This document shows, piece by piece, positions 1,503 through 30,880 of a stretch of 33,164 nt of DNA. How positions within the stretch are numbered: the stretch's first letter is position 1; each line of letters opens with the position of its first letter. The notes under the pieces are model-generated. The model saw only the letters and a program-made list of their open reading frames with translations. It did no database searches and was not told where the DNA came from. The position numbers were made by a program, and so were the translations under genes. Source of the stretch: an uncultured Mediterraneibacter sp. (GTDB lineage: Bacteria > Bacillota > Clostridia > Lachnospirales > Lachnospiraceae); assembly GCA_944384505.1 (NCBI GenBank), contig CALWTQ010000040.1:1-33164 (forward strand). Reading direction: 5' to 3'.

Positions 1503-2103
1503 ACAGCTATAAAGTTCACTAACACCCTGCTGCAAAACGGCCGAAAACAGAGTCGATTCCTAAGACGTATTCTGCGGGGATGGAGGACGGCTCCGGGCTT
1601 CGCTCCAGGGGATAAGGGAAACTAAAAGCTGCGGCGACAGACTAAATGCAAGGACTGACGGTGGACAATTCGCATTCGCTCAGACAATTCCACCGTCAGC
1701 CCTAACGTCTGCCGCCGCATCTTTAACTTTCCCTAATCCCCTTCCGAAGGCGCCCGTCGCCATCCTCCATCCCCGCAGAATCTTTCTCGAAATGGGGCTG
1801 TTTTCTGGGCTTTTTCAAGCCGGGAGTCAGTGAATATATAGCTGCTACGAGAAGCGGGCGCGGCTGGAAAGCCTTCGCAGCCGAAAGGCTACAAGCCGCG
1901 CCAATTCGTGCTTTACAGCTCATTTGGGGCAGTAACATTCCGATAGGGAATGCGCAGGAAGCGGAGCGGATGGTTTGAGTATACTTTCTGAGGAAGGGAA
2001 CATCGCACGGCTGTCCCCTTTCACAGAATACGTATCTCAAACCATTCGCTCCGCTTCCGGACGTGAGTCACAGGAATTGTTAGTGCGCTAAATAGCTGAA
2101 CTG
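1503..2103 (+). repeat. Structured intergenic repeat, copy B (complete, no hairpin IIIb)
   Basis: A complete copy in forward orientation. The left terminal repeat starts near 1504 and its inverted partner ends near 2103. Hairpin I: TCTGCGGGGATGGAGGA (1571-1587) pairs perfectly with 1763-1779; 1607-1621 pairs with 1728-1742 (one mismatch); 1631-1642 pairs with 1707-1718 (one mismatch); 1652-1665 pairs with 1689-1702 (one mismatch); the loop is 1666-1688. Hairpin II is at about 1857-1902 with GGCGCGGCT/AGCCGCGCC at its base. Domain III is closed by a 23-bp stem, 1957-1979 with 2036-2058 (one G-T pair). The extra hairpin IIIb of copies C and E is absent. Open reading frames crossing it are not credible genes. 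Confidence 0.92.
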
Positions 2104-9060: not shown

Positions 9061-10236
9061 ATGAGAGAATACATAATTAAGAACGGTATGGTGTACGTTC
9101 CGGGAAGCGGGAAATTTGTAAAGAAAGATATATATATAAAGGATGGGGAAATTTCAGACTGTCTTTTGGAAAATTTCAGAGACGAAGACGGTGGAAATAC
9201 GGCCTGCGTCCTTCGCACGATTGACGCGGAGGGATGTTATGTGACAAAGGGACTGATTGATAATCATGTGCACTTTTTTAAAGGGGGCACAGACAATGGT
9301 GTGAATCCGGACGCCGCGTCTTTCCCGTGCGGGATTACAACAGTAGTTGACGCAGGATCCTGCGGAGTCAGTAACTTTGAAGTATTTGAGAAGACCATAA
9401 TGGGGAGGGCGGATGTCGGGATGTTTGCGCAGCTTCTCGTGGGATCTGCCGGACAGGTATCGGGAAGATGTCCGGAGCGGATAGAGGCTGAATATATTGA
9501 ATCAGACCGCATACGAGAGATCTTTTCCCGATTCCCGGAGCGGATCACAGGTCTGAAGACACGTCTCTCGGCGAATATTATTTCCCCGGAAAATGCGCCG
9601 GCTTCTCTTGAGAAGACACTGGAGCTGGCCGAAGAGCTGGGATGCAGCGTGACGGTTCATATTACGAATCCGGCGATGGATCTGGAAGAGATGGCCTCTG
9701 CCCTCCGAAAGGGCGATGTGATGTGCCACATTTTCCAGGATCGGGGAAAAGAGAGTATTCTGGATAAGAACGGAAGAGTGAGAAGAGGAATCTGGAAGGC
9801 AAAAGAGCGAGGGGTACTATTCGATGCGTGCAACGGAATAAACAATTTCAATCTCACTATAGCATCTGCGGCGATGGAGCAGGGCTTCTTTCCGGACATT
9901 ATAAGCTCGGATATCAATGCGGGTTCATACTATGAAGGTGTTCTGCACAGCCTTCCCAAGATCCTGTCCAAGTATCTGGCGATGGGGCAGCCTCTTGATA
10001 AGATTCTGGACGCTTCGATTTTGGCTCCGGCGAAAGCTCTCGGCAGAGAAGAACTGGCGTCCATGGACGCCGGAGCACCGGCAGACTTGTTCATATTCAG
10101 GCTCGAAGAACACGAAATGACCTATCGGGATCATACAAACGGAGAAAACCAGGTGCACGGGAAAGAGATGATCGTGCCGCAGATGACAATAAAAGATGGG
10201 AAAATTGTGTATAGCCAGGTGTACTTTGAATCATAA
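9061..10236 (+). CDS. Amidohydrolase family metallohydrolase
   Basis: A 391-residue member of the amidohydrolase superfamily (dihydroorotase/deacetylase-like group). Likely metal ligands follow the superfamily pattern: HVH at 69 and 71, a candidate carbamylated Lys166 (ITGLKTRLS), His200 (VTVHITNP), His223 (VMCHIFQDRG) and the catalytic Asp284 (SSDINAG). The flanking beta-sandwich elements (DGEISDC at the N terminus, DGKIVYSQ at the C terminus) are typical. It probably hydrolyses a cyclic amide or an N-acyl bond in the cytosol; the substrate is not evident. GAGGGGGAG precedes the ATG. It is monocistronic by spacing: 169 bases after the subtilase gene, and repeat copy C begins 1-2 bases after its stop. 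Confidence 0.85.
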   Translation: MREYIIKNGMVYVPGSGKFVKKDIYIKDGEISDCLLENFRDEDGGNTACVLRTIDAEGCYVTKGLIDNHVHFFKGGTDNGVNPDAASFPCGITTVVDAGSCGVSNFEVFEKTIMGRADVGMFAQLLVGSAGQVSGRCPERIEAEYIESDRIREIFSRFPERITGLKTRLSANIISPENAPASLEKTLELAEELGCSVTVHITNPAMDLEEMASALRKGDVMCHIFQDRGKESILDKNGRVRRGIWKAKERGVLFDACNGINNFNLTIASAAMEQGFFPDIISSDINAGSYYEGVLHSLPKILSKYLAMGQPLDKILDASILAPAKALGREELASMDAGAPADLFIFRLEEHEMTYRDHTNGENQVHGKEMIVPQMTIKDGKIVYSQVYFES

Positions 10237-10237
10237 C

Positions 10238-11004
10238 AGAACAGCTATTTAGCGCAATAACTCTTTTCAGGGAACACGTCCGAAAGCGGAGCGGATGGTT
10301 TGCGATACGTATTCTGTGAAAGCAGACAGCCGTAAGACGTTCCGTTCCGGGATTCGGAAAATCTAACAGGACGAAGAGATGTTTAAAGGCAAAGCGGCGC
10401 TCCGGGCAACTCGCTCTGCTCAGACAATCCCTGCGCGCCGCTTAACAACATCTCTCCGCCCCTAAGATTTTCAGCGGATCCCTCCAAAGTCACATCTTCC
10501 GGCTGTCTCCTTCCCCAGAAAGTCTACTCAGATCGTCCGCTCCGCTTCCTGCGCATTCTCAGACGGAAATGTCATTGCCCTAAACAGGCTGTAAAGCGCA
10601 ACTGGCGCGGCTTGTGGGCTTTCGGCTGCGAAAACTTTCCGGCCGCGCCTGCTGCTTGTAGCAACTATATATTCACTGACTTTCGGTCTGAAAAAGCCCA
10701 GAAAACAGCCCCATTTCGAGAAAGATTCTGCGGAGATGGAGGATGGCGACGGGCGCCTTCGGAGGGGATTAGGGAAAGTTAAAGCTGCGGCGGCAGACGT
10801 TAGGGCTGACGGTGGAATTGTCTGAGCGGATGCGAGTTGTCCACCGTCAGTCCTTGCCTTTAGTCTGTCGCCGCAGCTTTTAGTTTCACTTATCCCCTGG
10901 AGCGAAGCCCTGAGCCGTCCTCCATCCCCGCAGAATACGTCTTTGGAATAGTCTCTGTTTTCGGACATTTTGCAAAAGGACGTTAGTGAACTTTATAGCT
11001 GAAC
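10238..11004 (-). repeat. Structured intergenic repeat, copy C (complete, with hairpin IIIb)
   Basis: The longest complete copy, about 767 bp, read on the minus strand. The right terminal repeat begins near 10242, just after the amidohydrolase stop, and the left one is at 10982-11004. Hairpin I spans 10726-10934 with its loop at 10817-10839. Hairpin II lies at about 10600-10650. Domain III holds the optional hairpin IIIb, loop 10407-10428 on a GCGGCGC/GCGCCGC stem, with a lower stem of GAGATGTT/AACATCTC in the element's sense. Loops I and IIIb are largely complementary. No coding gene is seen in these 767 bases. Confidence 0.92.
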
Positions 11005-20182: not shown

Positions 20183-20402
20183 TAAAAGCTGCGGCGAAAA
20201 TGCAAGGACTGACGGTGGAGAACTCGCATCCGCTCAGACAATTCCACCGTCAGCCCTAACGTCTGTCACCGCAGCTTTAACTTTCCCTAATCTCCTTCCG
20301 AAGGCGCCCGTCGCCTTCCTCCATCCCCGCAGAATACGTCTTGGCAAAGGAACTGTTTTCGGATGTTTCGCATCCGGACGTTAGCGAACTTTATAGCCGT
20401 TC
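20183..20402 (-). repeat. Structured repeat, fragment D (hairpin I and left end only)
   Basis: A partial copy of about 220 bp. It has the left terminal repeat at 20380-20402 reading inward on the minus strand, and hairpin I, but the hairpin is flipped relative to that end: the arm that normally lies farther from the left end (with GACGGGCGCCTTCGG) lies nearest to it. The outer part of the other arm is missing, and a small deletion removes ACAGACT-type bases from the inner stem near 20197. Hairpin II and domain III are absent. No gene is present. Confidence 0.85.
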
Positions 20403-25504: not shown

Positions 25505-26240
25505 CAGCTATAAAGTTCATTAATTTTCGTGTGTAAAACGTCCGAAAACAGGGTCGATTCCTAAAACGTATTCTGCGGGGATGGAGGAGGGCTCAGGGCT
25601 TCGCTACAGGGGATAAGGGAAACTAAGAAGTTGCGGCTGCGGATTAAATGCAAGGACAGGAGGGGAGCAACTCGCTTCGCTCAGACAATCTCCCCTCCTG
25701 TCCTAACATCCGCAGCCGCAACTTCAAGTTTCCCTAATCCCCTTTCGAAGGCGCCCGTCGCCCTCCTCCATCCCCGCAGAATTTTTTCGAAATGGGGCTG
25801 TTTTCTGGGCTTTTCAAGCCGGGAGTTAATGAATATATAGCTGCTGAGAGAAACAGGCGCGGTCGGAAGACTTTCGCAGCTGAAAGCCCCAAGCCGCGCC
25901 AGTTCGCGGTTCAGCCTAATTGGGCAATGTCACTTCCGACAGGAAATGCGCAGGAAGCGGAGGGGATGTTTGAAGCGTAAGTTCTTGGAGAGGGGGCGTG
26001 TGGGGACTGTGACTTTGGAGGAACCTGATGGAAGATCTTAGGAGTCGGAGAGCTGTTGTTAAGCGGCGCGCAGGGATTGTCTGAGCGGAGCGAGTTGCCC
26101 GGAGCGCCGCTTTGCACTTAAACAGCTCTCCGAATTCTTAGATTCTTCCCAGATTCCGGAACGGAACAGTACACACACGTCCCCTCTTCAAGGACACGTT
26201 GCAAACATCCCCTCCGCTTCCGGACGTGAGTCACAGGAAA
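25505..26240 (+). repeat. Structured intergenic repeat, copy E (with hairpin IIIb, right end lost)
   Basis: A nearly complete copy in forward orientation. The left terminal repeat starts at 25505. Hairpin I spans 25572-25790; its terminal stem 25654-25667 pairs perfectly with 25690-25703 around a 22-nt loop (25668-25689). Hairpin II is near 25855-25902. Domain III is closed by GGAAGCGGAGGGGATGTTTG with its complement near 26204-26222. Hairpin IIIb has a 22-nt loop (26076-26097) on a GCGGCGC/GCGCCGC stem. The right terminal repeat is not recognisable after 26240. No gene is seen in these 736 bases. Confidence 0.92.
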
Positions 26241-26320: not shown

Positions 26321-26695
26321 ATGAAAGAGACAATTTTACTTTTTAACCCGCCGGCAAAGGATCAGCTTTTAAAGATTGAGATGGCCCTTTTTCCGCTGCA
26401 TATCCGTCTGAAAAAAGTTGCCCTTCCGGACTACAGTCACCCACTCGGATATCTCGCAGGGATTAAGGATGCAGAGCCGGCTGCGGAGGCATATGCAGGA
26501 TCGGAACTGCCTGGTACTTTGTTTGTGTTCTGTTTTCTAAGCGACGGCCGCCTCAACCAGGCTCTGGCCGCCCTCAGAAAGTGCGGGGCCGGCCCCTTCC
26601 CGTATAAGGCGATCCTGACTCCGACTAACAGTGCGTGGACCGCGCCAGACTGTTTTGAAGAAATAAAGAAAGAACATGAGGCTATGCATCCATAG
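26321..26695 (+). CDS. DUF3783 domain protein
   Basis: A 124-residue soluble protein. The C-terminal half, KAILTPTNSAWTAPDCFEEI then KKEHEAMHP, is the conserved signature of DUF3783, a Firmicutes family of unknown function; VFCFLSDGRLNQALAALR also fits. The ribosome site AAGGAGAATC precedes the ATG. The gene is isolated between two repeat copies (E and F) of the same orientation. No catalytic motif is visible and no function is proposed. Confidence 0.85.
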   Translation: MKETILLFNPPAKDQLLKIEMALFPLHIRLKKVALPDYSHPLGYLAGIKDAEPAAEAYAGSELPGTLFVFCFLSDGRLNQALAALRKCGAGPFPYKAILTPTNSAWTAPDCFEEIKKEHEAMHP

Positions 26696-26702
26696 GGGCT
26701 TA

Positions 26703-27259
26703 CAGTTATAAAGTTCACTAACTTCCGGATGAGAAACGTCCGAAAACAGCACCCTTATTAAGACGTATTCTGCGGGGATGGAGGACGGCTCCGGGCTTCG
26801 CTACAGGGGATAAGGGAAACTAAAAGCTGCGGCGACAGACTAAATGCAAGGGCTGACGGTGGACAACTCGCATCCGCTCAGACAATTCCACCGTCAGCCC
26901 TAACGTCTGTCGCCGCAGCTTTAACTTTCCCTTATCCCCTTACGAAGGCGCCCGTCGCCATCCTCCATCCTCGCAGAATTTTTCTTGAAATGGTGCTGTT
27001 TTCTGGGCTTTTCAAGCCGGAAGTCAGTGAATATATAGCTGCTACAAGCAGCAGGCGCGGCCGGAAGGCTTTCGCAGAGGAAAGCCCTCAAGCCGCGCCA
27101 GTTAGTTCTTTACAGCTCATTTGGGGTAATAATATTTCCACCAGGAAATGCGCAGGAAGGGGAGCGGCTGTCTCCTTCCACAGAATACGTATCGCAAAAC
27201 ATCCGCTCCGCTTCCGGACGTGAGTCGCAGGAAATGTTAGTACACCAAATAGCGGAACT
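26703..27259 (+). repeat. Structured intergenic repeat, copy F (complete, shortened domain III)
   Basis: A complete forward copy of about 557 bp with both terminal repeats (left from 26703, right ending near 27259). Hairpin I spans 26769-26977, and its inner stems are matched without the mismatches seen in copy B (GCGGCGACAGAC with GTCTGTCGCCGC, GGGCTGACGGTGGA with its complement). Hairpin II uses GGCTTTC/GAAAGCC. Domain III is short because much of the left arm after GGAGCGG is missing. A TATAAT (27265-27270) lies just past the right end, but no good -35 was found with it. No gene is present. Confidence 0.92.
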
Positions 27260-29716: not shown

Positions 29717-30880
29717 ATGACAAAGATAGATATTATCTCCGGCTTTCTCGGAGCCGGAAAGACAACACTGATTAAAAAACTGCTCTCAGAAGCATTTGCC
29801 GGGGAACAGGTCGTACTGATTGAAAATGAATTCGGAGAAATCGGGATCGACGGCGGTTTCCTGAAAGAATCAGGCATTGAGATCCGCGAGATGAATTCGG
29901 GCTGCATCTGCTGTTCACTTGTAGGAGACTTCGGGAAATCACTGAGAGAAGTGGTGGATACCTACCATCCGGATCGTATCCTGATCGAGCCGTCAGGCGT
30001 GGGAAAGCTTTCTGATGTGATCAGGGCAGTGCAGGATGTCCAGGGAGAAATTGACGCAGAGCTCAACAGCTTTACTACAGTTGTGGATGTGACAAAGTGC
30101 CGGATCTACAGGAAGAACTTCGGCGAGTTCTTCAGCAATCAGATCGAATATGCGGGCGCGGTGATATTAAGCCGTACGGATAAAGCAAAGCCGGAGAAGA
30201 TTGAGGAGAGCGTGGCTCTGCTGCGTGAATTGAACGATAAGGCGCCGTTTATCACAACGCCGATCGCACAGCTCTCAGGAAAGAAGATCCTTGAGACTAT
30301 GGAGGCCAGCAAGTCCCTGGAAGAAGAACTTCTGCAGGAAGTCATCTGCCCGGAGTGCGGTCATCATCACGAACACGGCGAATGCTGCGGTCACGACCAT
30401 GCTCATGACCACGGGCACGGCCATGACCATGAGCATCATCATGAGCATGGGCACGAGGAGCACGGCCATGACCACGGGCACGACCACGCTCATGAGGAGC
30501 ACGGGCATCATCATGACCACGACCATGAGGGACACGGCCATCATCACGAGCATGGCCATCATGGTCATCACCACCATGATCACGAAGGTCATCATCATGC
30601 CGACGATATTTTCACAAGCTGGGGCAGAGAGACGATCCGCACATACACAAAAGATCAGATAACAGATATTTTAAAACAGCTTGAAACAGATAAGACATAC
30701 GGCAATGTACTCCGTGCAAAAGGCATGGTGGCAGGCAGTGACGGAGAGTGGATCTATTTTGATATGGTCCCGGAAGAGCATGAGATCCGTACAGGCGCTC
30801 CGGAGTATACAGGCCGCATCTGCGTAATCGGCGCGGATCTGAATGAGGATAAGCTGGCAGAGCTGTTCCGGACTGCATAA
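29717..30880 (+). CDS. CobW/COG0523 family GTPase with histidine-rich insert
   Basis: A 387-residue metal-handling GTPase. Walker A is GAGKTT (13-18); the metal-binding CxCC motif is GCICCSL with Cys63, Cys65 and Cys66; Walker B and switch follow in ILIEPSGVGKL (88-98); the guanine-specific motif is SRTDK (152-156). The insert at about 211-294 has CPECG, then ECCG, and about 43 histidines, mostly in HxH repeats, before a CobW C-terminal domain (298-387). COG0523 proteins pass Zn2+, Co2+ or Ni2+ to client enzymes using GTP; a His stretch as large as this points to metal storage or buffering. The client and metal are not clear: no urease, hydrogenase or cobalamin genes are nearby. A second CobW-type gene follows 59 bases later. 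Confidence 0.93.
   Translation: MTKIDIISGFLGAGKTTLIKKLLSEAFAGEQVVLIENEFGEIGIDGGFLKESGIEIREMNSGCICCSLVGDFGKSLREVVDTYHPDRILIEPSGVGKLSDVIRAVQDVQGEIDAELNSFTTVVDVTKCRIYRKNFGEFFSNQIEYAGAVILSRTDKAKPEKIEESVALLRELNDKAPFITTPIAQLSGKKILETMEASKSLEEELLQEVICPECGHHHEHGECCGHDHAHDHGHGHDHEHHHEHGHEEHGHDHGHDHAHEEHGHHHDHDHEGHGHHHEHGHHGHHHHDHEGHHHADDIFTSWGRETIRTYTKDQITDILKQLETDKTYGNVLRAKGMVAGSDGEWIYFDMVPEEHEIRTGAPEYTGRICVIGADLNEDKLAELFRTA

Follow-up and report, generated by a model that had tools for sequence, protein, structure and literature searches.

A protein-free 760-bp repeat of Mediterraneibacter with a REPIN-like layout and a hairpin tip that recurs in other bacterial phyla

Introduction

The described systems that come closest to the repeat reported here are REPINs and BIMEs, in which paired REP sequences spanning tens of bp are moved by a RAYT. 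Bacterial MITEs (here Nezha, MITEAba12 and the Correia element) and the IS200/IS605 family, which is not known to have inverted ends, also enter the comparison. TnpA-REP proteins bind folded single-stranded hairpins in a strand-specific manner, and both they and IS608-type enzymes recognise loops or irregularities in the hairpin of one strand (PMC8266576, as excerpted). REPs tagged with CGTC occur in several phyla without a dedicated transposase, as palindromes of 20–40 bp with loops of 4–5 nt (excerpts of PMC3733652).

The repeat was noticed in a 33,164-nt stretch of DNA from an uncultured Mediterraneibacter sp., the whole of which we call the window. It resembles a REPIN in that two inverted palindromes form one mobile unit, present in high copy number, intergenic, situated behind genes and showing strand-specific hairpin features, but it measures 760 bp, has no GTAG tag at the hairpin foot, possesses 20-bp inverted ends, has no linked RAYT that we could find, and carries a GNA-loop tip that crosses phyla. 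Terminal inverted repeats, the lack of an open reading frame, an intergenic location and mobility are shared with the bacterial MITEs named above, whereas the element differs from them in that no target duplication and no cognate IS were found and in its large layered hairpins with a conserved tip. As with IS200/IS605, action would be on one strand of a folded hairpin and there is no target duplication, but the hairpins point in opposite directions and no Y1 gene is linked to the element as a partner. CGTC-tagged REPs are also palindromic and multi-phylum in the excerpted account (PMC3733652), the present element having instead long stems and a 21-nt tip. A preliminary description of the window had judged the repeat too large for REP or BIME; this is right as regards membership, since the element fails the REP definition, but not as regards layout, which works like that of a REPIN. 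Because it lacks defining features of a REP as well as the target duplication of a MITE, we regard it as a new form among mobile non-autonomous palindromic repeats: it is not a REP as defined, and its novelty lies in the trans-phylum tip.

Results

Copies and termini of the element

The seven copies or parts listed in the preliminary description are all real, with corrected limits (Table 1). They occur in both orientations, and with 3,663 of 33,164 bases (11%) they do take up more than a tenth of the window. A complete element is 760 bp long and is bounded by inverted ends of 20 bp, of which the A end starts with CAGCTATTTAGCGCA(A/C)TAAC and the B end with CAGCTATAAAGTTCACTAAC. The inverted ends first claimed from the window proved to be fixed wherever the match reaches the terminus, at 55 ends of B type and 51 of A type. 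Among 44 two-ended copies examined, 34 measure 740–779 bp and 10 are shorter. Coding capacity, already denied in the preliminary description, was rejected because reading frames are not kept from copy to copy; the longest stop-free stretch shifts in frame and place among the 34 full copies.

Table 1. Positions in the window of the element copies and of the parts of the full-length copy
Feature	Position	Strand	Remark
Full-length element, 760 bp	10242..11001	-	both inverted ends present
A-type terminal inverted repeat CAGCTATTTAGCGCAATAAC	10242..10261	+	
B-type terminal inverted repeat CAGCTATAAAGTTCACTAAC	10982..11001	-	
Hairpin I domain, full copy	10659..11001	-	
GC-rich hairpin II region separating I from III	10598..10658	-	
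Hairpin III domain, full copy	10242..10597	-	
Hairpin I tip, ...TTGTCTGAGCGGATGCGAGTTG	10814..10839 (end approximate)	+	
Hairpin III tip, ...TTGTCTGAGCAGAGCGAGTTG	10405..10430 (end approximate)	-	
Two-ended 595-bp copy with a deletion inside domain III	1504..2098	+	
Two-ended 553-bp copy, internally deleted	26703..27255	+	
Copy without right inverted end (A end)	25505..26228	+	with 26703-27255 flanks inverted host gene
Rearranged fragment: hairpin I part and one terminus	20183..20399	not assigned	
Copy cut by contig start	1..522	-	
Copy cut by contig end	32869..33164	+	

Between the copies at 25505-26228 and 26703-27255 lies a gene (26321-26695) whose orientation relative to its neighbours is inverted when compared with 15 of the 15 relatives searched. 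It looks as if the inversion had run through both copies, the left one of which is without its A end.

Hairpin structure and covariation

The hairpin architecture of the preliminary description was borne out, with sizes larger than claimed: hairpin I is about 343 nt, hairpin II about 50 nt and hairpin III about 350 nt. A full copy folds as RNA at -369 kcal/mol on one strand and -359 kcal/mol on the other (raw values, without shuffle comparison). Hairpins I and III run in opposite directions and are each closed by end-like sequences, with the short hairpin II between them. The same tip caps both, on opposite strands, and reads TTGTYTGA, 2–3 pairs, a GNA loop, 2–3 pairs and GAGTTG; some tips are looser variants of this pattern. 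The short tip stem changes in step (GC/GC, AC/GT, CC/GG, GCC/GGC), and short DNA hairpins with a GNA loop and two G-C pairs are extraordinarily stable according to the excerpted text of PMC4686876. The hairpin-I consensus starts with CAGCTAT and the hairpin-III consensus ends with ATAGCTG, so that GTAG is absent from the foot, and the units are about 350 nt long where a REP palindrome has 20–40 bp.

Covariation was assessed in alignments of 65 hairpin-I domains (49 from the genome itself, 16 from other species) and 51 hairpin-III domains (43 and 8, respectively). Five of 56 hairpin-III candidates were excluded, having turned out to be hairpin I on the opposite strand; one hairpin-I row (L090) is probably mis-oriented and was kept. 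Double changes that preserve pairing were seen at 47 of the 70 pairs predicted for hairpin I and at 40 of the 83 predicted for hairpin III, values reached in none of 500 shuffles for either hairpin. Overall pairing was 96.2% in I and 97.9% in III, against 40–52% with slid partners. Long palindromes can hold their pairing through template-switch correction, which mimics covariation. What these data show, given that the rows come from related copies and also served to predict the structure and that palindromes can self-correct, is maintained pairing; a function is not thereby proven.

A strand-bias test, whose scoring is blind to wobble and which a strand-symmetric DNA palindrome should fail, found more G-T than A-C mismatches on both tip strands: 269 and 114 in hairpin I (64 of 65 rows), 224 and 46 in hairpin III (51 rows). 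Binomial values for these counts are inflated, since the copies are related and not independent. Given this G-T excess in I and III alike, selection seems to act on the fold of the tip strand. The tip columns are more conserved than the adjoining stem in hairpin I (0.915 versus 0.803) and no more conserved than it in hairpin III (0.928 versus 0.924).

The tips of I and III lie on opposite strands, each with the G-T bias on its own tip strand, and one transcript therefore cannot explain them. A large structured RNA, which the preliminary description had considered, is accordingly not supported as the primary form of the element. The Rfam comparison proposed there gave no match above gathering score in the window; the sub-threshold matches, set aside, were nine microRNA models fitting the long hairpins.

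Copy number and mobility

A search of the 3.95-Mb genome for the end pattern with up to 3 mismatches gave 212 forward and 202 reverse matches, and the reversed control gave 2 and 3. The 414 matches against 5 exclude chance and correspond to roughly 200 elements, an estimate from ends and not a count of copies; at 207 elements of 0.7 kb, some 4% of the 3.95 Mb would be element DNA. Many contigs start or stop in a copy, among the end matches listed.

The preliminary suggestion of a non-autonomous mobile element is upheld by the sharp ends, the copy number of about 200 and the empty sites in relatives. The element is absent from all 13 relative loci examined at one site (S1) and from all 7 at another (S2), with alignments that span the gap; at S1 some relatives have other, shorter sequence in the gap. 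In the synteny search, parts of one stretch (L070) aligned in 15 of 15 relatives. The amidohydrolase gene at 9061-10236 of the window, beside the full copy, and the element itself are both missing from relatives such as G047, G036 and G016; there, the genes flanking the pair are separated by about 90 to 270 nt.

No target-site duplication of 2–9 bp beyond chance was detected in 44 copies at offsets of -4 to +4, as earlier in 28 pairs. The flanks repeat 2 nt in 7 copies (5.7 expected), 3 nt in none and 4 nt in one (0.2 expected), and 5, 6, 8 or 9 nt in none of the 44. Thus, of the features of a MITE, terminal inverted repeats and the absence of an open reading frame are present, and target-site duplication is absent. 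Of 106 ends, 14 have an AACT starting at flank position 1 and 6 have one starting at position 4, as against 0–2 for any other position. A second terminus lies within the flank at 12 of 106 ends (3.6 in shuffled flanks), exactly 16 nt out in 7 of the 12.

Internally deleted and rearranged copies, together with the inversion between two copies, would also fit a spread without any transposase, in which the palindromes pass on passively via replication template switching and gene conversion. We hold this to be very improbable, as the fixed 20-bp ends and the absence at the same gap in relatives suggest a cutting step.

Within the genus the element was matched in 21 of 58 genomes, the source genome included, in several of them over short pieces only. 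Some of the genus genomes have diverged families of their own with the same layout, and one shows a hairpin-I-only match (L088). Phage and plasmid sequences gave no element match, in a search that may omit records close to the window's genome. A lone viral contig that matched the end pattern has a single terminus without other likeness to the element and was taken as chance.

The hairpin tip in other bacteria

We scanned the exact tip pattern TTGTYTGAGCGNAGCGAGTTG across a collection of 84,980 genomes, which is not a census, and found it in at least 98 stretches, where about one is expected by chance (our own estimate from base counts). Hosts among the 80 titled of these at least 98 stretches include Nitrospirota, Polaromonas, Marinobacter, Porticoccaceae and other Pseudomonadales, Herbaspirillum and Methylococcaceae, and the titled matches listed extend to Elusimicrobia, Mucispirillum, Bacteroides, Anaerovibrio, Phascolarctobacterium and several Lachnospiraceae. 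The viral collection gave one tip match, which folds as a hairpin. With a looser tip pattern, 23 chosen genomes had between 0 and 166 matches each, 22 of them at least one, and there was one control match overall. In an even draw of 398 genomes from the element's own phylum, 21 had a tip match, namely 6 with at least three (the source genome included) and 15 with one, and 7 had a control match; the 21 of 398 indicate that the tip family is patchy.

Among the matches listed, the exact tip mostly sits on long stems: at least 20 bases are paired across the tip in 88 of 97 tips with long enough arms, as against 68 of 300 random places. At 93 of 102 listed tips, 124 G-T were counted against 72 A-C, and at random positions 2410 against 2434. 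Much of this excess comes from Lachnospiraceae (Mediterraneibacter included) and Mucispirillum; the Nitrospirota tips are level (37 G-T versus 35 A-C). Fifteen untitled tip loci were grouped by likeness in the group comparisons, the G-T count included. Titled loci alone give 103 G-T versus 63 A-C, and those outside Mediterraneibacter a modest 90 versus 60 over 72 tips.

Of the 102 tips among the matches listed, 91 lie outside open frames of at least 110 codons. Where both neighbours are known, the genes on either side are convergent for 22 tips, tandem for 37 and divergent for 4. No gene common to the tip neighbourhoods was found among the listed tip loci; the three largest neighbour clusters (18, 7 and 6 loci) consist chiefly of reading frames that pass through the hairpins or lie beside them, and the rest comprise at most 5 loci each. 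In 12 tip-bearing loci from other bacteria the hairpins had no Rfam match, and a tRNA was the only RNA found in those loci. The tip strings were not found in the literature searched, which does not prove them unpublished.

In aligned loci of Nitrospirota, Polaromonas and Bacteroides (L228, L245, L208 and similar), conservation continues beyond the tip hairpin. A second hairpin-like stretch, with CTTTTCTTTTGC-like arms, follows the tip hairpin in the loci of these three groups, and a CCGGG stretch follows it in those of Nitrospirota and Polaromonas. The Nitrospirota copies end in CGTC-like letters, which we mention as a lead only.

Search for an enzyme partner

The whole genome was searched with the transposase profiles PF01797 (Y1) and PF01609 (DDE_Tnp_1), and neither of these two families yielded a transposase with matching ends. 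There are five Y1 matches. One is an IS200-like gene inside an element copy, at about position 420 of 760, and two are fragments that adjoin element pieces broken at positions 612 and 615 (contigs C15, C73 and C54; loci L120, L121 and L123). The two fragments are perhaps halves of one insertion, later split by a serine-recombinase-like gene (named by eye), and IS200 may prefer the hairpins of the element. The flanks of the other two, a RAYT-like gene and one further Y1 match, contain no element, so that no RAYT gene flanked by the repeat, as expected of a REP or REPIN, was found. The single RAYT-like gene (L122, 1099-1866, 255 aa), named by its length and a weak Y1 score, adjoins a glycyl-tRNA-synthetase-like gene (by eye) and lies between short GGGACGTAGTAAAATC palindromes that have no relation to the element.

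No tip was present in the flanks of 13 Y1 loci in 8 other tip-bearing genomes, and 5 of 13 tip-bearing genomes searched gave no Y1 match. In the genus, Y1 was matched in 49 of 58 genomes versus 21 of 58 for the element. A Y1 or RAYT partner was rejected, being unlinked to the element and missing from some tip-bearing genomes.

An ordinary MITE would be a deletion derivative of a DDE insertion sequence whose enzyme reads only the 20-bp ends, with hairpins and tips as passengers. Clear 20-bp inverted ends, the lack of an open reading frame, some 200 copies and mobility all agree with such an origin, but the flanks of 44 copies contain no duplication of 2–9 bp beyond chance, the genome's single DDE_Tnp_1 gene is without the element's ends and was rejected as a partner for that reason, and the tip is kept in bacteria where the surrounding element sequence differs. 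We consider this explanation rather unlikely.

Position relative to genes

Gene calls for this comparison were simple open frames of at least 90 codons, with a lower codon minimum at stretch ends. Of 106 element ends, 48 face a gene 3′ end, 53 a gene 5′ end and 5 were unclassed. Of the 3′-facing ends, 38 of 48 are located at -19 to +9 nt relative to the stop codon, with a median of 5, a negative distance meaning that the stop is supplied by the element's own end; the 5′-facing ends have a median of 106 nt, and none of the 53 lies within 9 nt of a start. The A end is commoner on the 3′ side (29 of 48, versus 18 of 53 on the 5′ side; Fisher p 0.01). Short ancestral gaps and selection may partly lie behind the placement at stop codons.

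This placement, seen also in 8 of 10 classed 3′ ends (at most 7 nt) among 11 copies of other species, could mean that the element is a selected RNA at mRNA 3′ ends (a terminator, an mRNA-end protector or a ribosome-stalling hairpin) that spread through its usefulness, and ribosome stalling has been reported for REPs at most 15 nt from a stop codon (excerpts of PMC12306157). However, the gene-proximal hairpin would be read as antisense in either orientation, yet the tip strand tolerates G-T in both hairpins, and the insertions are lineage-specific. At the listed tip loci, Lachnospiraceae included, the tip faces a gene 3′ end in 44 cases on one strand and in 53 on the other, a near balance that also speaks against such a role; the nearest 3′ end is at least 41 nt from the tip and mostly more than 100 nt, so that abutment on stop codons is not evident at these loci. 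A selected 3′-end RNA is, in our view, distinctly unlikely.

Discussion

We find about 200 protein-free copies of an element with fixed ends and two inverted, tip-capped hairpins around a small one; it inserts without target duplication, has empty sites in relatives, shows strong covariation of its pairs and is preferentially placed right behind stop codons. We favor, at a little better than an even chance, the explanation that it is a mobile DNA repeat, REPIN-like and non-autonomous, which is moved by a trans-acting enzyme that reads a single-stranded hairpin. By analogy, fixed ends, absence of duplication, inverted strand-specific hairpins and 3′ placement would work together as they do in REPINs and in single-strand transposition, and the strand-specific hairpin binding of TnpA-REP (PMC8266576, in excerpt) would lend this support.

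We suggest that when the DNA becomes single-stranded in replication, repair or transcription, each long hairpin would fold on its tip strand, and that a recombinase or transposase supplied in trans could recognise the tip, with its possible tandem G/A pairs and GNA mini-hairpin. The enzyme would then cut at the conserved CAGCTAT ends, end and tip perhaps acting together, and the element would be joined to a new site, with a probable preference for flanks that start with AACT or resemble its own end. Selection may subsequently keep those copies that have landed just past stop codons. The tip could be common to several phyla because an enzyme family, or else a conserved host factor, recognises it.

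A more tentative suggestion, possible though short of probable, is that the 21-nt tip marks a trans-phylum class of mobile single-strand hairpin elements that has so far gone unrecognised and has an enzyme of its own; the Mediterraneibacter element would be larger and more abundant than any other form seen here. Should the tip be a recognition site, a mobile-DNA family spread over several bacterial phyla would be defined by it, and the enzyme could be sought with a 21-letter handle. With the element, a very large structured insert also comes to lie a few bases past stop codons, a position suited to tests of effects on translation.

The element also offers a reason for the many contig breaks at repeats in this genome, and it shows inversion between copies. 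At 30413-30558 of the window, a histidine-rich repeat of the GGGCACGGCCATGACCATGAG type is found within a CobW-family gene (29717-30880).
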